Shown here: positions 40,219-52,159 of the stretch, in pieces | How the letters are laid out: each line of letters opens with the position of its first letter | Numbering within the stretch: the first letter of the stretch is position 1 | Assembly: GCA_947471905.1 (NCBI GenBank) | Contig: CANIZT010000001.1 | Span: 1 to 52,159 of the forward strand | Direction: 5' to 3' | DNA length: 52,159 nt | DNA from: Verrucomicrobiaceae bacterium | GTDB taxonomy: Bacteria > Verrucomicrobiota > Verrucomicrobiia > Verrucomicrobiales > Verrucomicrobiaceae | Notes under the pieces: model-generated | The model's database searches: none | Seen by the model: only the letters and a program-made list of their open reading frames with translations | What the model was told of the DNA's origin: nothing | Made by a program: the position numbers and the translations under genes

Positions 40219-40878
40219 CTAGCGGGAACGCTGGAGATTTTCAAGAGTGGTTCCAAACCGCATCACATCTTCTAATGCGAGTCGCTTCTGCTCAAATTCC
40301 TCCTCGGTCATGCGACGCGGGATGTGATGCGGTTTGTCGAAGACGATCGTGACCTTCGCAAAGGGCAGCGGCAGAAGGAACTCGTCCCAGGTTTTGAACT
40401 GGATGAAGTGACTGTAATGCATGTGCACAGGGATGATCGGTGTGCCGGTGAGCTGACCGAGTTTCACAATGCCGGGCTGCACGCGATGCAGCGGACCGCG
40501 TGGCCCATCGGGCGTGATGCCGATCTCGTAGCCCTCGTTGGATTTCTTGGCCAACGCGATGAGTGCGCTCATGCCTTTCTCGGGTTTGGAACTCGATCCA
40601 CGCTCCGCCTCGATGCCGAAGCTCTCGCACACATCGGCGATAATCTGCCCATCGCCGCTGGGGCTGGTCAGAATGGTGCCGGGAATGTTGGCGAACCACT
40701 CGTGATGCAGCCACGGGATGAGAAACATGCGGTTGTGCCAGAAGGACCAGATCCAGCCCTTACGTGAGGCATCGAATACGCCCGCGTCATCGCGGACTTC
40801 CCAGCGCAAAGTTGCGCCGATGCCGCGCATGAGCCATGCGATGATCTTGCCGACGTTCTTGATGCGGATTTTGGCCAT
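40219..40878 (-). CDS. DUF374 lysophospholipid/lipid A acyltransferase-like protein
   Basis: The 219-residue protein fits DUF374, related to lysophospholipid acyltransferases. The block FWHNRMFLIPWLHHEW precedes the catalytic-type block TSPSGDGQIIADVCESFGIEAERGSS, and ITPDGPRGPLHRVQPGIV and PVHMHYSHFIQFKTWD are also typical. Family proteins are thought to acylate membrane lipids or lipid A precursors. The HxxxxD motif of classic acyltransferases is present only as the family variant. The gene is 34 bases downstream of the Mla-type operon, and its predicted role in envelope lipid metabolism fits that neighbour. Confidence 0.88.
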   Translation of the reverse strand: MAKIRIKNVGKIIAWLMRGIGATLRWEVRDDAGVFDASRKGWIWSFWHNRMFLIPWLHHEWFANIPGTILTSPSGDGQIIADVCESFGIEAERGSSSKPEKGMSALIALAKKSNEGYEIGITPDGPRGPLHRVQPGIVKLGQLTGTPIIPVHMHYSHFIQFKTWDEFLLPLPFAKVTIVFDKPHHIPRRMTEEEFEQKRLALEDVMRFGTTLENLQRSR

Positions 40879-40912: not shown

Positions 40913-42598
40913 TCAACCCGGCGATGCAGTTGAGGTCGATTTCACGAGTTCGATCACCGATTTACCTTCTTCCCGGCGGAAATCGACGCGGTCAAAGATC
41001 TCGCTGATGACATGGAGGCCAAGACCGCCGATGCGCTGGCCGGTGGAGGGCGGGGCGACGAGTTTCTCAAAGTCTTCGTTCGTGATGCCTGCGCCATGGT
41101 GCTCGATGAGGATGCGGACCGAAGAGGCGTCGGCTTCGATGCGGCAGCAGGCGGGGCGCTCGGTGCTGGTGGAGCAGTAAGCGTATTTGCAGATGTTGCT
41201 CATCACCTCGTCGCAGCCGAGAACGAGGAGGCCTGTAGTGTCATCGAGCAGGCCGTGGTAGCGAGCCCAGGTCTCGATGAAATCACGCACGAGGCACAGT
41301 GTGTCGGGATGACAGGTGAGAGCGAGTTCGGATGGCGGCGGCGTGGAGTGATCCGTGATCGTCAGCACGGTGGCGTCGTCCTGGTAGCTCGCGCCGTGAG
41401 CAAAGGTGCGCCATTGCTCGACGAGATGGTTTAAGAAGCCGTCGCCGCCGTTGGTATGCTGCATGGCGGCGGCGAAGGCTTGGTCTTCGAAGTACTCGCC
41501 CGCGTTGTTTTGGACTTCGAGAATGCCATCCGTAAAGAGCATCCAGTGGCGACCGGTACTGAAGGGCAGCACGCATTCCTCGTAACGTGCGGAGCAGGCG
41601 ATGCCGAGCGGCGCATTGCCGGGGGCGGGTACTTCTTTCCATGCCTTGCCGTCAAAGACCTGCGCACCGGGCAATCCAGCACAGCACAGATGCACGCGGC
41701 GGGAATTCGGGCAGACGAGCATGGCGTTAATGGCAATGAAGCGGCCTGCCTTCATAACACCACAAAGCCGCTTGTTCAGCGTGGTCATCCATTCGGCGAG
41801 ATTCATAGAAACGCACAAGTGCGCAGTCGATGCGATCAAGGTGGTGCCGCGGGCCATGTCGAGCGCGGCGGGCAATCCTTTGCCGCAGACATCACCGACA
41901 CCGAGGAGAATCTTGCCATCGTCGATCTGGTGCCAGAAGTAGAAATCGCCGCCGACTTCGCTGGCGGGTTCGTAGAACGTTTCCACGGCGACATCGCCCA
42001 GGCGCACCTGTGGCGCAGGCAGGAAGGAGTTTTGAATTTCCGTCGCCAACGAAAGCTGCTGGCGGTTTTCGGCTTCGCGAATGGCTTTCTTCTGCGATTC
42101 TAACCGCATCAGCGTCACGGCGATGAGGCTGCCGAAGGTTTCAAACATTTCCACATCCTGTGGCGTGAAGGCGGCGCTGTGGTTCGGGTTGATCGCCTGC
42201 ATGACGCCGAGGCAGTGTTCGCCATCAAGCAGCGGGATCGTGAGCATCGCCCGCGTGACGAGTTCAGATTTGTCCGAGGCAGGTCGGAAATGCCGGGGAT
42301 CGTTGAGCGCGTCCTCGATGTTGACGACTTTTTTCGTCGCATAGACATCACCGGCGATGCCCTTGCCCTTCGGCACGCGGACTTCCATCGCATTGATGGG
42401 ATCGAGCGTGGAGCGGATCAGCAAATCCTCACTGGGGCCTTCAGGCAGCAAGATGGAGCAGACCTCGCAGTCCATCACCTCACGCGAGCGCTGGAGGATG
42501 TGATCGACGAGTTCAACGAGGTTGTGCGTGCTGCTCAAACGGCGTGCCACGTCGATCAGCACGGCCTGGCGTGATGCAATGGGCTGCGGATTACTCAC
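40913..42598 (-). CDS. GAF-PP2C (SpoIIE/RsbU type)-HATPase regulatory protein
   Basis: The 561-residue protein starts with GTG at 42598; this start overlaps the mlaD stop by 8 bases (GTGAGTAA) and avoids a 200-base overlap required by the longer frame to 42799. Domains: GAF (about 11-168), helical linker, PP2C/SpoIIE-type phosphatase (about 200-415) with metal aspartates Asp218, Asp236, Asp357 and Asp408, and an RsbW-like HATPase (about 425-555). In the HATPase the N-box (Asn468 in EVMSNICKYAY) and G2 motif GGLGLH (524-529) are present, but the usual G1 Asp is His (HHGAG, 500-504), so kinase activity is uncertain. It is coupled to mlaD/mlaF/mlaE and a STAS protein, which suggests phospho-control of the transporter. 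A phosphatase acting on an unlinked anti-anti-sigma factor is an alternative. Confidence 0.9.
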   Translation of the reverse strand: MSNPQPIASRQAVLIDVARRLSSTHNLVELVDHILQRSREVMDCEVCSILLPEGPSEDLLIRSTLDPINAMEVRVPKGKGIAGDVYATKKVVNIEDALNDPRHFRPASDKSELVTRAMLTIPLLDGEHCLGVMQAINPNHSAAFTPQDVEMFETFGSLIAVTLMRLESQKKAIREAENRQQLSLATEIQNSFLPAPQVRLGDVAVETFYEPASEVGGDFYFWHQIDDGKILLGVGDVCGKGLPAALDMARGTTLIASTAHLCVSMNLAEWMTTLNKRLCGVMKAGRFIAINAMLVCPNSRRVHLCCAGLPGAQVFDGKAWKEVPAPGNAPLGIACSARYEECVLPFSTGRHWMLFTDGILEVQNNAGEYFEDQAFAAAMQHTNGGDGFLNHLVEQWRTFAHGASYQDDATVLTITDHSTPPPSELALTCHPDTLCLVRDFIETWARYHGLLDDTTGLLVLGCDEVMSNICKYAYCSTSTERPACCRIEADASSVRILIEHHGAGITNEDFEKLVAPPSTGQRIGGLGLHVISEIFDRVDFRREEGKSVIELVKSTSTASPG

Positions 42599-43811
42599 GG
42601 CGTTTGAAGAGATTGAGAATGCCTTTCTTTTTTTCCTCGGGCGAAGCGGATTCGGGCGGCATGGAGTTGCTGCCAGACTTGGGAGCAGGCTTCGCGCCGG
42701 ATTCGAGTTCTTTGATACGCACGGGATAGGGCGTCTGGCTGCGGCGCATGTGCTCGATGATCTGCTCCTTGCTTGGCACTTCGTTTTCTTTGCTGCCAAA
42801 GATCAGGCGGCTGGGTTTTTCGGCGAGCGTGCCGGTGATGTATTCGCCCCAGACGACGAGGGCGTTCATCTCTTCGACCAGCGTGTGGACCTTGCGCATC
42901 GTGGCGTCGAGATTTTTCTCCAAACCCGGACCAGAGGCACCTTCGCCACCGGCCAGAAGCTTGTGCAGATCGGTGGTGATTTCTTCAATGCGCGCCCGCA
43001 GGCCGGGTTTGCCATCGGCAGTGCCGGTGATGGTTTGATTCAACTCCTTGGAGAAGGTTTCGAGGTTCGCGAGGATGGCATCCGCACGGTTCGCGAGGCC
43101 CTTGTCTGCCGCACCCTTCGGGCCTTTGACGAGTTCTTGGATGCCGGTGGCGGTTTCTTCGAGCTTGGTGGCAACATCCTTGAGCTTCTGACCGAAGCCG
43201 GGGGTTTTGCCATCGCCCGCGAACACGGTTTTCAGTTCCGCTGTGAACGATTCGATGTTGGTGAGTGAATCGGTGATCTTTTTCGCAGCGTCGCCTTTGC
43301 CGAGCGGGCTGGTGATTTTTTTGAGGTCGGCGGTGATGTCCCGGATGTTGGCGAAGATCGCATCGCCACCTGGCAGCATCACCTCCAGCAGGCTGCCGAG
43401 GCTGGAGGAGGTGAGCTTCGTGCCATCGGCCAGCAGGCCGCCTTGGTCGTCCATGCGCACGAGGGCGATGTGCTTCTCGCCGAGCATAGATTCGGCGCTG
43501 ATGAGTACATTCACGTTTGCCGGGATCGGCACCTGCTCCAACACCTCGATGTGAACGCGCACGGTGCGGCGGGCCACGAGGCGGTCGGCTGGAGCGAGAT
43601 GTTCGATGCGTTCGACGACACCGATGTTGTCACCGGCATAGAGCACGGTGGTGTTGCGGCGGATGCCGGTCACATCCTCAAAGTCCACGGAGAAGCGCAG
43701 GTGCGGCTGGCGCCAGGGATCGCCGGAGATCGCGAACAACAGCGCGCCGAGCAGCACCAGCGAGCAAAGGATGACCAGAGTGGCCACGATGGCATCATTC
43801 TTGTTTTTCAT
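42591..43811 (-). CDS. mlaD: MCE-domain substrate-binding protein of an Mla-type transporter
   Basis: The 406-residue protein has one N-terminal membrane anchor (residues ~8-30, ATLVILCSLVLLGALLFAI) and the MCE/MlaD domain at about 36-115 (LRFSVDFEDVTGIRRNTTVLY to NVLISAESMLGEKHIALV). A long helical periplasmic region to about residue 330 may form a tube or oligomerisation part, and a basic C-terminal tail follows. It would present lipid to the ABC permease; family members form hexameric rings. It is longer than E. coli MlaD (183 residues) and more like Mce/Ttg2C-type proteins. It overlaps mlaF by 4 bases upstream and the PP2C gene by 8 bases downstream. Confidence 0.9.
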   Translation of the reverse strand: MKNKNDAIVATLVILCSLVLLGALLFAISGDPWRQPHLRFSVDFEDVTGIRRNTTVLYAGDNIGVVERIEHLAPADRLVARRTVRVHIEVLEQVPIPANVNVLISAESMLGEKHIALVRMDDQGGLLADGTKLTSSSLGSLLEVMLPGGDAIFANIRDITADLKKITSPLGKGDAAKKITDSLTNIESFTAELKTVFAGDGKTPGFGQKLKDVATKLEETATGIQELVKGPKGAADKGLANRADAILANLETFSKELNQTITGTADGKPGLRARIEEITTDLHKLLAGGEGASGPGLEKNLDATMRKVHTLVEEMNALVVWGEYITGTLAEKPSRLIFGSKENEVPSKEQIIEHMRRSQTPYPVRIKELESGAKPAPKSGSNSMPPESASPEEKKKGILNLFKRRE

Positions 43812-44689
43812 GGCTTGGAGGGGTGGATGGCGGAGCGTGAATACTTGCCGGTGTCGTTGATGCCAAGCAGTGTTTCGCGATACAGCAGCTCGCCGGAGTC
43901 ATCGGTGCCGTCGCCTTCAGGATCACCGTTGATGAACTGTTGCACCGCAGGATTGGGATGCGCCTTGATTTCCTCCGGCGTGCCGGCGGCGATGACTTTG
44001 CCCTGATTCGGGCCGGTGCCGAGCATGATGATGCGCGTGCCGATGCGGAAGACGCTGTTCATGTCATGCGTGACGACGACAACCGTCGCACCGATTTTCT
44101 GCGTGAGGCGCTGCGTGAGTTCATCCACCACGGCGGTCATGATGGGGTCGAGTCCGGCCGTCGGTTCGTCGCTGAAGACGAGCGGCGGATCCAAGGCGAG
44201 CGCCCGGGCGAGTGCAGCACGCTTTTTCATGCCGCCGCTGATCTCAGAAGGCTTTTTGTGGCCGTGACCGGTCAGTCCGACCTGCTCCAGCTTCATTTTG
44301 ACCACGGTGTCGATCAATCCGGCATCAAGCTGCGTGTGTTCGACCAACGGGAGCGCCACGTTCTCGGCGACCGTGAGCGATTGCAGCAGCGCGCCGGATT
44401 GAAACAGCATGCCGTAGCGGCCGCGCAGCTTTTGCAGCGCTTCAGCGCGCATGGTGGTGATCTCCTGGCCGAAAACTTTGATGCTGCCGGAGGTGGGCTT
44501 CTCGGTGCCGATGAGATGACGCAACAGCGTGCTTTTGCCGCAGCCGCTGCCGCCCATGATGATGAAGGTGTCACCGGCATAAACTTTGAAGCTCACACCA
44601 TCGAGCACTTTCTGCGTTCCAAAATGCCGCACGAGCAAATCGACCTCGATGATCGGTTCGGCGGCTGAATCTGGTGCGTGAGGCTTCAT
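43808..44689 (-). CDS. mlaF: ABC transporter ATP-binding protein of an Mla-type lipid transporter
   Basis: The 293-residue ATPase has Walker A GGSGCGKST (46-54), a Q-loop near MLFQSGALLQSLTVAENV, the ABC signature ISGGMKKRAALARALALDP, Walker B LVFSDEPTAGLDP and the His switch in VVVVTHDMNSVF. The sequence of the signature and the MLFQSGAL block is characteristic of MlaF/Ttg2A rather than other ABC families. It powers transfer of phospholipid between membranes together with MlaE and MlaD. It shares its first base with the last base of mlaE (44689) and overlaps mlaD by 4 bases, so the three are translated together. Confidence 0.96.
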   Translation of the reverse strand: MKPHAPDSAAEPIIEVDLLVRHFGTQKVLDGVSFKVYAGDTFIIMGGSGCGKSTLLRHLIGTEKPTSGSIKVFGQEITTMRAEALQKLRGRYGMLFQSGALLQSLTVAENVALPLVEHTQLDAGLIDTVVKMKLEQVGLTGHGHKKPSEISGGMKKRAALARALALDPPLVFSDEPTAGLDPIMTAVVDELTQRLTQKIGATVVVVTHDMNSVFRIGTRIIMLGTGPNQGKVIAAGTPEEIKAHPNPAVQQFINGDPEGDGTDDSGELLYRETLLGINDTGKYSRSAIHPSKP

Positions 44690-45435
44690 TAGAAGAAGAA
44701 CAAGGCGGTGAGCACGGCGTTGGCAATGAAGACGCTTAGCAGCGAGACGACGACCGAACGCGTGGTTGCTAGACCCACGCCCTCAGCGCCGCCGGAGACG
44801 TTCAAACCGATGCTGCAGGCGATGGTGACGATCAGCACGCCGAAGACGCCGCTTTTGAGCAGACCGATGCCGACATCGCTCAGCTCGACGTATTGCAGTG
44901 CATGGCTCACAAAGTAGGCGGTGGACATGTTCAACGAGTAATGGCCGATCAACCAGCCACCAGTGAGGCCGACGTAGATGCTGAACACGGTGAGCAGCGG
45001 CATCATGATGACCATGGCGAGGAAACGCGGCACGATGAGGTAGGACATCGGCGGGATGGCCATGACTTCGAGCGCTTCGATTTCCTCCGACACTTTCATC
45101 GTGCCGAGTTCCGCCGTGACCGATGAGCCGCTGCGGCCAATGACGATCACCGCCGTCACCAGCGGTGCCAGTTCACGAATCAGGCTGGAGGATACGAGTC
45201 CTGGCACATAAACCGTGGCACCGAGCTTCGCGAGCTGAGCGGCGGACTGCATTGCCAGTACGACGCCGATGGTCAGGGCCGTGAGTGCCGCCATCGGCAC
45301 CGCATGCACGCCGATGCGGACGATTTGCGCGAAGGTGTGGCCGATGCGCCACGGTTTGCCACGAAACGGAGCCGCAAAGAGCCAGTAGAGAAGACTGCCA
45401 CACAATGCGAAGTATTGGCGGAAGGCTTCGATCAT
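44689..45435 (-). CDS. mlaE: ABC transporter permease of an Mla-type lipid transporter
   Basis: The 248-residue protein is an MlaE/DUF140 permease with about five membrane helices. Characteristic parts are TIGVVLAMQSAAQLAKLGATVYV, LVSSSLIRELAPLVTAVIVIGRSGSSVTAELGTMKVSEEIEALEVM and VPRFLAMVIMMPLLTVFSIYVGL. It is the membrane core on which MlaF and MlaD assemble. The STAS gene lies 18 bases upstream and mlaF immediately downstream. Length is close to the E. coli protein (260). Confidence 0.96.
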   Translation of the reverse strand: MIEAFRQYFALCGSLLYWLFAAPFRGKPWRIGHTFAQIVRIGVHAVPMAALTALTIGVVLAMQSAAQLAKLGATVYVPGLVSSSLIRELAPLVTAVIVIGRSGSSVTAELGTMKVSEEIEALEVMAIPPMSYLIVPRFLAMVIMMPLLTVFSIYVGLTGGWLIGHYSLNMSTAYFVSHALQYVELSDVGIGLLKSGVFGVLIVTIACSIGLNVSGGAEGVGLATTRSVVVSLLSVFIANAVLTALFFF

Positions 45436-45453
45436 GCGGGCTGGGGCGAGGGC

Positions 45454-45804
45454 TTAACGCTTGCTCTGCAAGTCGGCGGCATTCAGCGCCTCCTCGACCG
45501 TCGGCAGATGCAGGATGAAATCACCGAGGCGGACGATCTTGAACGAGGCTTCCACGCGTCCCTGGATGCCGGTGAGTGCGAACTCGCTGCCGGCACCGCT
45601 TGCATGCTGATAATACTCGACCACCACGGCCCAGACCGGCGTGTTGACGAAGGTGACCTTGGCGAAGTCGATGATGAGGCGCTTCACCTTGGCCTTCATT
45701 TGCTCGCGGACGAGTTTTTGGAACTCAGGCACTGTCGCGAGGTCGGCATCGCCCTCCAGTTCGATGACGGCGGCGTTCGGGTGGGTGCGAAGGGTTGGTT
45801 TCAT
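45454..45804 (-). CDS. STAS-domain protein, MlaB-like or RsbV-like
   Basis: The 116-residue STAS protein starts at ATG 45804; the in-frame upstream ATG at 45843 adds an unrelated leader. The central beta-strand and helix motif is RLIIDFAKVTFVNTPVWAVVVEY. At the position of the phosphorylated serine of anti-anti-sigma factors and of the critical threonine of MlaB there is a threonine (Thr55), while the usual Asp before it is Asn54. In the Mla system MlaB binds the ATPase MlaF and is needed for activity. Its place as the first gene before mlaE supports an MlaB role; the downstream PP2C-HATPase protein suggests Thr55 could be a phosphorylation site. RsbV-type general stress function remains possible. 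Confidence 0.88.
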   Translation of the reverse strand: MKPTLRTHPNAAVIELEGDADLATVPEFQKLVREQMKAKVKRLIIDFAKVTFVNTPVWAVVVEYYQHASGAGSEFALTGIQGRVEASFKIVRLGDFILHLPTVEEALNAADLQSKR

Positions 45805-49826: not shown

Positions 49827-50804
49827 CTACCAGTCGAAAAACAAACGTAAGAACAGTGTGCCATTGAGGACCTTGTAGCTGGAATCCTCCAGCGTTGATT
49901 TGGAGTCCGTGTAGTTTCCGATGACGTCAACGGCCAGATGCTTCAATGGCTGCCAACTGACGGTCATTGTTGGTGACCAAGCGTTGTCACTGCGCACGAC
50001 ACCGATGAATTGCTCATAGTAATACTGCAGGGAGGGCGTGAGGTAGAGCCTGCGCCCCTTCAAAGGGATGAATGTGACGCCGAGATTGAACGCATGCCGG
50101 TGTTTATCAGGCACGGGACCGGTGGTGCTGCCGGAGTCCATGTAATTATACATGTAGCTGAAGTCCGGTATGCACCAGTCAATGAGGAGCCAGGAAAAAT
50201 CCACAGAACCGGCATAAGTGTACGTGTCCAGAGTGCGTGCGCCGGTGGCACGGTCAAACAGCCGGGTGAACGCCCAACCAATTGGTAGAGTCAGGGTTGC
50301 CTTGTTGTGAAAGAGCTGCCGTTCATAAGTGAGGGTTTGGCCAAAGGTGCTCGAAATATAGTCATTCACGGCGTTGGCCGCTTTGCCGTAATAAAACCAT
50401 CCCTCATCATAGGTATTGGAGAGCGACCAGTTCTTGTCGAACTGCGCATCCAAAGAAACGCCCACGAACTGCGCATACTGCGTGTCCCGCTCCTTATCAT
50501 GCTGAGTGTTAAAGATGTTGTCAGAAGCAAAGAACATGGTGTTCGCGCGGAACTGCATCGACAGCACCTCGCTTAGCGTCTGATACCATTCCCCCAGCTT
50601 CGTTGGCGATTCACCGGAAGCGGCAGCGATGGACTGACTTTCCAACTCTCCCACCATGCCAAGCCGTTGAAAACTACCGCGCCCACGGGGAAGTTGGCGG
50701 CGGAAGGATTCGATCCGACTCGAACGCTTTACCTGGGCGGCGGAAGCGACACTCTCCATCAGCGGCATGCTGAACATCAGAAGAATCAAACCCACGTTAC
50801 GCAT
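49827..50804 (-). CDS. Predicted outer-membrane beta-barrel protein
   Basis: The 325-residue protein starts at ATG 50804 (a TTG at 50816 is in frame) with a signal peptide (MRNVGLILLMFSMPLMESVASAA). A low-complexity Arg/Ser-rich linker follows. From about residue 85 there are many alternating amphipathic strands rich in Tyr, Trp and Phe (NWSLSNTYDEGWFYYG, PDFSYMYNYMDSG, LYLTPSLQYYYEQFIG), and the protein ends in FLRLFFDW, an aromatic C-terminus typical of BAM substrates. It is likely a small channel or an assembly protein. It lies 22 bases downstream of a small secreted protein gene on the same strand. Confidence 0.8.
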   Translation of the reverse strand: MRNVGLILLMFSMPLMESVASAAQVKRSSRIESFRRQLPRGRGSFQRLGMVGELESQSIAAASGESPTKLGEWYQTLSEVLSMQFRANTMFFASDNIFNTQHDKERDTQYAQFVGVSLDAQFDKNWSLSNTYDEGWFYYGKAANAVNDYISSTFGQTLTYERQLFHNKATLTLPIGWAFTRLFDRATGARTLDTYTYAGSVDFSWLLIDWCIPDFSYMYNYMDSGSTTGPVPDKHRHAFNLGVTFIPLKGRRLYLTPSLQYYYEQFIGVVRSDNAWSPTMTVSWQPLKHLAVDVIGNYTDSKSTLEDSSYKVLNGTLFLRLFFDW

Positions 50805-50826
50805 AGGTAGTGTCAAACTGGGTCAG

Positions 50827-51078: not shown

Positions 51079-51290
51079 GACGAATGAGCATTCTTGTCCC
51101 CATCAAAAAGCCGATGCCGAATTGGCAGCGATTTATGAGGACCATGAATTGTCAGCCAATTCTCGTAATCTGGCAAGTCTCGTGCGCGCGAGCAATAGTA
51201 CCAGCGGATAGCTCCACACTCCCAGTTACTTCGTTGATTTGACCTTAGGCTTGGCTGGTGGAGTTGACGATTTATCCGTGCTTTGAACAC
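51075..51290 (-). CDS. Possible 71-residue small ORF
   Basis: This ORF runs through the 147-base gap between the coiled-coil gene and the small secreted protein gene, overlapping the former by 65 bases and ending in an ATGA overlap with the latter. Its C-terminal 50 residues are rich in Trp, Tyr and His (WECGAIRWYYCSRARDLPDY), which is more protein-like than most shadow frames here. There is no recognised domain and the 5' part is antagonistic to the overlapping gene's codons. It may equally be non-coding. Confidence 0.25.
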   Translation of the reverse strand: MFKARINRQLHQPSLRSNQRSNWECGAIRWYYCSRARDLPDYENWLTIHGPHKSLPIRHRLFDGDKNAHSS

Positions 51291-52159
51291 GGGTGCTTTC
51301 AGACTTCATTGGGATGGGCCTAAGGCGGATGGCATCGATGTGGACGATATGTGCCTCGGAAACACTTACGGTGGTCTGATCTTTGCCGATTTCACTGACG
51401 ACGGCAGGGTGCTGGGCCGGGTTGGCCTGCAAATCTCGAAGCGCAGCAGTCTTGGCTTCCAATTCGGCTAATTCATGCCGGGCAGTCTCGATCTGGCGCG
51501 AGAGTTCAGCGTATTGCGCTGCATCTCTTTCAACAGCGGCTTTTTGTTCCTCAGTTTTAGCCTCCTTGCGTTTGGCGATTTGTTGCTCGCCTACAGTGCT
51601 GTTGTTCTGTACGTCAAGGAAGCGTTGTTCGACGGCGGCGAGGCGCTGTCTGGCATCAGCAAGCTGCTGTTTGGTGGCGGCGAGATCCTGGCACTGCTGC
51701 TCGATTTCAGCGCGGCGCGCCTGGGTTTCTTCGAGGCGCTGAGTTTCTGTAGCGAGCTTTGTCTGTGTGCTAGCAAGCGTCGCCCCGGCCTCGGTGGCGG
51801 ACTGCTGCAACGTAGCTAGACGGGTTGCGAGTTCATTGAGGGTGGTCTCAGCGTTTTGCTGCTCCATGGACAAGGTTGCAAGGGTGGCGGTAAGGGCGGT
51901 GTACCGCTGCTCGGCCTCCTGACAGCGGGCTTGGGCCTGCTCAAGCCTTTCCTCACTGCCACTGAGTTCTTCGATATGTGCTTCGACCTTTTCTAGGTGT
52001 TGGGCGAGTTGTTCAAGTTGCTGTATCTTTTTCTCCGTCGTCTGCACCTGTTCAATGCGCGCGGCGGCAAGTTCTTGGCCCTCCTTGAAACGGGCTTCCA
52101 TCTCGATAACTTGCTGGCGTAGGCTGTTCAATAAAGCCTCGTCCTGCTCACATTCATCA
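51226..52159 (-). CDS. Coiled-coil protein, 5' end beyond the window
   Basis: The frame is open from the window edge to the stop at 51226, giving at least 310 codons; no stop occurs upstream and the first start-like codon (TTG at 52131) is within coding sequence, so the true start lies outside. Almost the whole visible part, up to about 95 residues from the end, is a continuous Gln/Glu/Ala-rich coiled coil (for example QQLEQLAQHLEKVEAHIEEL). The C-terminus is a small mixed region (TTVSVSEAHIVHIDAIRLRP) and a Ser/Thr/Pro/Lys-rich tail. The architecture suits a structural or envelope-spanning scaffold. Biopolymer-transport or tail-like accessory functions are possible; no family is recognised. 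Confidence 0.8.
   Translation of the reverse strand, partial: DECEQDEALLNSLRQQVIEMEARFKEGQELAAARIEQVQTTEKKIQQLEQLAQHLEKVEAHIEELSGSEERLEQAQARCQEAEQRYTALTATLATLSMEQQNAETTLNELATRLATLQQSATEAGATLASTQTKLATETQRLEETQARRAEIEQQCQDLAATKQQLADARQRLAAVEQRFLDVQNNSTVGEQQIAKRKEAKTEEQKAAVERDAAQYAELSRQIETARHELAELEAKTAALRDLQANPAQHPAVVSEIGKDQTTVSVSEAHIVHIDAIRLRPIPMKSESTRVQSTDKSSTPPAKPKVKSTK

Follow-up and report, generated by a model that had tools for sequence, protein, structure and literature searches.

The question raised by this locus is why genes for an Mla-type ABC transporter share one cluster with those for a candidate phosphorylation switch, and whether that switch could act on the transporter itself. 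The DNA analysed is a stretch of 52,159 nucleotides (nt) from a Verrucomicrobiaceae bacterium (hereafter the window; coordinates refer to the forward strand of the whole stretch). On its minus strand follow, in this order, a gene for an RsbV/SpoIIAA-like STAS protein (45454..45804, ATG at 45804, 116 amino acids (aa); Pfam STAS, E-value 6.8e-16), mlaE for an MlaE-family permease (44689..45435; PF02405 (MlaE), 5.8e-74), mlaF for an MlaF-like ATPase with a C-terminal extension (43808..44689; ABC_tran, 4e-32), mlaD for an MlaD-like MCE protein of 406 aa with a single MCE domain (42591..43811; PF02470 (MlaD), 1e-11) and a gene for a GAF-PP2C(SpoIIE)-HATPase_c_2 regulator (40913..42598, GTG start, 561 aa; GAF 1.6e-19, SpoIIE 3e-29, HATPase_c_2 3e-16). 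STAS and mlaE are separated by 18 nt, and the junctions mlaE/mlaF, mlaF/mlaD and mlaD/regulator overlap by 1, 4 and 8 nt. An initial annotation, made from the letters alone, had listed five consecutive genes on one strand with these overlaps, which is exact to the base according to the coordinates of the open reading frames (ORFs), and each of its domain calls is matched by Pfam. With an MlaE permease, an ABC ATPase and an MCE protein encoded together, the cluster belongs to the MCE/Mla-type ABC transporters in the broad sense.

The reading that best fits this cluster, as predicted from sequence comparisons, is a transporter under partner-switch control: the MCE-type ABC transporter, the STAS protein and the GAF-PP2C-HATPase protein probably work together as a phospho-switch. 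STAS would receive a phosphate from the HATPase domain and lose it again to the PP2C domain. Without the phosphate, STAS would dock on MlaF by way of its helical face and the tail of MlaF, like MlaB in Escherichia coli, and would thereby hold MlaF on MlaE (transport on), whereas phosphorylation of Thr55 would disrupt the STAS-MlaF contact (transport off). A GAF ligand, acting via PP2C, would shift the equilibrium between the two states. On balance it also seems that there is a group of MCE transporters, distinct from E. coli Mla and present in five phylum-level groups, in which control is exerted by adding phosphate to, and removing it from, the transporter's own STAS protein, via a kinase and a phosphatase of the same cluster (i.e. 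a partner switch with a membrane transporter instead of transcription as its output), and that Verrucomicrobiaceae have a variant of this switch, with a joint change of kinase pocket and substrate motif. If true, a membrane transporter would be gated directly by partner switching, and a cytosolic signal would reach envelope lipid flux in one post-translational step. Since the putative kinase, phosphatase and substrate genes are neighbours in these operons, MlaB-type regulation becomes testable with purified proteins.

Within the family the arrangement is kept. Among 59 Verrucomicrobiaceae genomes, a close regulator (E ≤ 1e-150) is present in 20 and a distant, full-length one in two more (G240 and G248); 18 genomes have a close mlaE (E ≤ 1e-60), in each case together with the close regulator, and the remaining 37 genomes hold neither at these thresholds. 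Twenty regions of 10.7 to 19 kilobases (kb) each were examined (G279, in which the unit is split over contigs, was left out), and in 18 of these the order STAS-mlaE-mlaF-mlaD-regulator is intact, in more than one genomic setting, the exceptions being G260 and G291 (see below). The gene order is retained in G240 and G248 despite identities of only 36% for the regulator and 41% for MlaE. As to the junctions, ~400-500 nt of repetitive-looking sequence separates mlaE from mlaF in four members of the genus (L061, L062, L063 and L065), and the tight overlap is therefore not universal.

The module also recurs far outside the family. Species genomes were scanned with a regulator profile of 57 homologues (picked from 102 near-full-length rows among the 120 matches listed), the results being the best 80 loci. 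Among these, L073 and L074 are Prosthecobacter-type units, L075 to L077 have the gene order of the window, L078 (Lindowbacteria) has the order regulator-STAS-mlaE-mlaF-mlaD, and L085 and L086 (Calditrichaeota CLD2) encode GAF-PP2C, HATPase, STAS, mlaE, mlaF and mlaD as separate genes; from L087 to L152 no mlaE match was found within these best 80. A STAS gene and an RsbW-like kinase beside mlaE recur in four further phylum-level groups, mostly together with PP2C, which lies at the opposite end of the unit; this brings the module to five phylum-level groups and two gene orders.

The most extensive series comes from the phylum of CLD2 (L086), in which 82 genomes gave 79 mlaE matches in 64 genomes. 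Fifty-eight of the loci are of a first type (type 1), one per genome (58/82), and in all 58 a kinase and then a STAS gene stand immediately before mlaE; PP2C adjoins the unit in 38 and is missing from 13 that have room for it, while seven end at an edge that precludes an assessment. Ten of the 13 loci without PP2C (within L238-L261) have, judged by eye, a polA-like ORF just before the kinase gene. Of the 21 other mlaE matches in this phylum, 12, which are of a second type, were examined: none has the module, six lie in genomes that also hold type 1, and all 12 carry a STAS-like stretch fused to MlaE (by eye; Pfam was run on two). Linkage is found in three of three Lindowbacteria-type and two of two CG07-type genomes, in which four and one further mlaE loci, respectively, are unlinked. 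In the G538 phylum (a Calditrichia record), 40 genomes gave 31 mlaE matches, and the 30 loci examined comprise two linked ones (in two genomes), one cut at STAS by the contig end and 27 without the module. The module is likewise absent from all 10 other mlaE loci in four genomes of the window's genus. Finally, 23 further genomes were chosen for holding a GAF-PP2C relative, and the 30 mlaE loci examined in them include two linked ones (in genomes already counted), one with STAS only and 27 without. The STAS-only locus (L301 in G533, reached from a Bryobacterales record) has STAS directly before mlaE and neither kinase nor phosphatase in the 1.5 kb examined; it is possibly an intermediate form.

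The association of these genes is real and is spread over phylum-level groups, and an ordinary or one-off adjacency was rejected given the conservation in the family and the recurrence elsewhere. That the adjacency should be accidental, or an artefact of assembly, might be argued from the many genomes that are drafts in many contigs and from the patchy occurrence of the unit in Verrucomicrobiota, but with tight or overlapping junctions in dozens of genomes from several phylum-level groups this is hardly credible and is refuted by conservation. The initial annotation had proposed to look for the regulator beside mlaEFD and STAS in other genomes and would have counted adjacency in one genome only against its idea; since the partner-switch module is conserved next to mlaEFD, in the family as well as in other phylum-level groups, that objection falls away.

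Which transporter is concerned follows from a tree of 93 MlaE sequences (39 linked to the module, 53 unlinked and one STAS-only; 22 of the 58 type-1 sequences were included). A single group of 55 (support 100/97) unites all 39 linked sequences, 15 of the unlinked sequences and the STAS-only sequence, and the link label requires 2 changes on the tree versus 29.7 in shuffles. Twelve of the 15 unlinked members are STAS-fused, two have sub-threshold STAS matches only and L306 has none. STAS-MlaE fusions occur in a branch neighbouring the linked sequences, and a single clade of the linked ones is compatible with the data (approximately unbiased test, p-AU 0.456). E. coli MlaE lies outside the group of 55, in a quick tree beside unlinked paralogues of the window's own genome and relatives, and constraining it into the STAS-associated group is rejected (p-AU 0.0104); the permease that groups with it is L312, located elsewhere in the window's own genome. 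Because E. coli MlaE is thus placed outside the STAS-associated group, the window carries, as judged from these trees, a distinct MCE transporter, and the candidate status of E. coli Mla orthologue was discarded. Of the label "Mla-type lipid transporter operon" given initially, the part that stands is the membership of the three proteins in the MlaE, MlaF and MlaD families; orthology with E. coli Mla does not.

A possible link between STAS and transporter at the level of the proteins is the MlaF tail. The C-terminal extension of the window's MlaF holds YRETLL, which aligns with "yradll" in the tail of Pseudomonas aeruginosa MlaF, the E. coli counterpart being YHADLL. The accessible part of PMC7367683, on which the following statements about E. 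coli rest, describes how the C-terminal extension of MlaF (Tyr261, Leu265, Leu266) docks at the MlaF-MlaB interface, that MlaB Thr52 lies within this interface and that T52E reduces MlaF binding; upon removal of the tail MlaB binding persists, and MlaF no longer stays on the complex. The regulation of MlaB is called an open question there, phosphorylation being suggested and not demonstrated. In an alignment-based survey of complete MlaF sequences (79 of 87 linked loci, 27 of 32 STAS-fused and 40 of 44 chosen STAS-less ones), a tail, defined as at least 20 aa past the last conserved Phe, was present in 76/79 linked, 1/27 STAS-fused and 7/40 STAS-less loci, where 20 of the STAS-fused loci were assigned by ORF length only and, in choosing the STAS-less ones, a few unclear loci were left out. 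The motif Tyr-x3-hydrophobic occurs in 65 of the linked sequences and in none of the STAS-fused or STAS-less ones. As the rows are related, this distribution amounts to few evolutionary events, and a P value computed as if relatives were independent is given no weight here.

The predicted phosphosite of the STAS protein is Thr55, in the motif N-T-P-V-W; in the alignment it falls on the first Ser of M-D-S-S in SpoIIAA and TM1442, which in SpoIIAA is Ser58, the phosphosite. The position is Ser or Thr in all 72 STAS sequences examined (one genome being counted twice, one sequence coming without a kinase and two without mlaEFD). SpoIIAA is phosphorylated at the equivalent site, according to the part of PMC7367683 available.

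Several findings weigh against partner-switch control of the transporter. Ser/Thr at the site likewise occurs in all 12 STAS stretches read that are part of an MlaE fusion and have no kinase nearby, and its conservation was for that reason rejected as proof of phosphoregulation; the residue after the site is S in the D-S-S-G of linked STAS proteins and A in 11 of the 12 fused stretches. Four full-length relatives of the regulator (L079, L080, L081 and L084) have no mla gene in the available flanks, no kinase gene accompanies STAS and mlaE in the 1.5 kb examined at L301, and PP2C is absent from 13 of the 51 type-1 loci with room for it, where a phosphatase may act from elsewhere. The regulator is also rare in Verrucomicrobiota, at two of 387 genomes (E ≤ 1e-90, a maximum of three candidates scored per genome); the second match (G374) likewise shows the order STAS-E-F-D-regulator, and in a separate sample of 240 genomes (E ≤ 1e-30) two of the three matches (G128 and G218) are partial and lack an adjoining mlaE. 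From the side of the E. coli protein, the available text of PMC7367683 reports that MlaB T52A is non-functional yet still bound to MlaF, a misfit with simple phosphoregulation.

To these come two natural deletions. G260 (L055) and G291 (L056) lack mlaEFD and retain STAS and regulator at low ratios of nonsynonymous to synonymous change (dN/dS). In G260 a 29-nt remnant of mlaE, 10 nt behind STAS, is joined to the end of mlaD; the ~3 kb between remnant and mlaD end are deleted and the start of mlaE is missing as well. In G291 the spacing between STAS and regulator is 6 nt. The values of dN/dS are 0.0038/0.28 for STAS and 0.024/0.42 for the regulator in G260 versus G275, and 0.14/0.84 and 0.13/0.87 in G291 versus G273, in each case similar to intact pairs. 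The loss of mlaEFD with STAS and regulator kept fits a second target, another MlaE system (three other MlaE loci are retained in G260, two in G291) or a fairly recent loss.

Because two genomes lost the transporter genes but kept STAS and regulator, another target of this pair is possible, and in its strongest form the pair would switch only something else in trans (e.g. an anti-sigma factor or other signalling), with the transporter genes merely sharing its promoter. Classic partner switches do control sigma factors, which together with the selection on the orphaned pair speaks for such a target. In switches of the RsbU/W/V type the kinase also binds a target, usually a sigma factor, that is set free by dephosphorylated STAS. 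Neither the 19 ORFs flanking eight linked loci nor the Pfam-scanned neighbours in the window contain a sigma-factor domain, although such a target may lie elsewhere in the genome. The presence of the linked module in five phylum-level groups and in two gene orders, the co-occurrence of the MlaF tail and the STAS-MlaE fusions in a neighbouring branch also speak against exclusive action in trans, which is quite unlikely. Two outputs, i.e. a STAS protein that controls the transporter as well as a second partner, such that STAS and regulator can outlive the transporter, would accommodate the same deletions, and the MlaE loci remaining in G260 and G291 could also be targets. Still, only two draft genomes are concerned, and the loss in G260 is later than its split from G275, the STAS proteins differing by one residue, so that we regard dual output as unlikely.

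Whether the regulator is an active kinase in the window's own family also bears on partner-switch control. The AlphaFold2 model of the regulator has a mean predicted local distance difference test (pLDDT) score of 86.7. Compared with solved structures, it comes closest to 3ke6, which holds the RsbU and RsbW domains of Rv1364c; the HATPase domain on its own yielded no informative structural match. Asp 218, 236, 357 and 407 of PP2C, presumably the metal-binding aspartates, are invariant in 57 of 57 homologues. The motifs of GHKL Ser/Thr kinases are Glu and Asn of the N-box, Asp of the G1-box and the glycines of the G2-box. At the G1-box Asp position, 47 of the 57 homologues have His and 10 have Asp; the window regulator has His500, with Glu464 and Asn468 of the N-box intact, and His is found in 21 of 21 Verrucomicrobiaceae (the 20 regions and the window, two of them now without mlaEFD), accompanied in all 21 by the STAS motif N-T-P. 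In linked loci outside the family for which both were read, the G1 residue is Asp in 69 of 69 and the STAS motif is D-S-S-G in 68 and A-S-S-G in one. The coupling of G1 His and N-T-P may be a single correlated evolutionary change, the relatives not being independent.

Given the His in place of the G1-box Asp, kinase activity is not to be assumed for the window's family, and the plain claim that the kinase of the window genome works is not made. The HATPase domain of Verrucomicrobiaceae might instead be a pseudokinase that binds and holds STAS, the phosphate being set by PP2C alone or by an unlinked kinase. The His/N-T-P coupling in 21 of 21 speaks for this; Glu464 and Asn468 and the two glycines of the G2-box, on the other hand, are invariant in the 57 homologues, suggesting continued selection for nucleotide binding, and we consider a pseudokinase somewhat unlikely. 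In the proposed partner switch the kinase step is nevertheless the least certain one for the window genome, because the changes from Asp to His and from D-S-S-G to N-T-P-x go together, and it appears better supported in the other groups. The proposal of a bifunctional regulator that sets the phosphorylation state of STAS is accordingly supported in part, by the conserved module, the PP2C aspartates and the N-box, and weakened by the G1 His in the family.

Among known systems, E. coli MlaFEDB (accessible part of PMC7367683) shares with the cluster an MlaE-family permease, an MCE protein and the C-terminal tail of MlaF, as well as a STAS protein whose equivalent site is a Thr; phosphorylation of MlaB is not demonstrated in that source. 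It differs in that E. coli MlaE groups with an unlinked paralogue of the window genome and in that the 7 kb examined in E. coli contain mlaC but neither a kinase nor a phosphatase gene. With RsbU/RsbW/RsbV and SpoIIE/SpoIIAB/SpoIIAA it has in common a SpoIIE-type PP2C, an HATPase_c_2 kinase domain and a STAS protein with a Ser/Thr site, but PP2C and kinase are fused, the G1 Asp is His in the window's family, no sigma factor was found nearby and what is controlled appears to be an ABC transporter. Single chains that join a phosphatase with an RsbW-type kinase domain are also known from Rv1364c and SypE, in contrast to which the window protein has a GAF domain in front and is encoded together with an Mla-type transporter. 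Rv1364c presumably carries its STAS domain within the same chain, unlike the window protein. SypE, like the window regulator, has a STAS substrate: it is a dual kinase/phosphatase that acts on the STAS protein SypA at Ser56 (available part of PMC8256260). DUF140-STAS (i.e. STAS-MlaE) fusions are mentioned in the portion of PMC1810536 that was accessible; they too tie STAS to an MlaE permease and branch beside the linked sequences, but lack a nearby kinase or phosphatase in 12 of 12 loci and the MlaF tail in 26 of 27.

A literature search, which covered few subscription papers and no preprints, returned no paper on "partner switch" or SpoIIE together with MlaE, in agreement with the initial annotation, to which no described Mla transporter under such control was known; control of such lipid pumps by phosphorylation is not described in the literature searched. 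Components of Mla were mapped across 1083 genomes in PMC10665443, the accessible main text of which contains no mention of SpoIIE or a phosphatase.

Among the window genes scanned with Pfam no MlaC or MlaA was found, the rest of the genome not having been searched for either. Downstream of the regulator lies a gene for a DUF374 protein (40219..40878, minus strand), which had been thought to strengthen the envelope-lipid theme. Both this gene and a carbohydrate-kinase gene are neighbours only in same-genus loci among the 20 family regions, and DUF374 was missing from the regions of G246, G240, G248 and G281; it was therefore rejected as a member of the unit. Six loci (L062, L063, L066, L067, L068 and L070) have an additional open frame of ~150 codons between regulator and DUF374. 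Further along the window, two minus-strand ORFs without a Pfam match and without mutual similarity resemble, by eye, an outer-membrane beta-barrel protein (49827-50816) and a long coiled coil (51226-52131).

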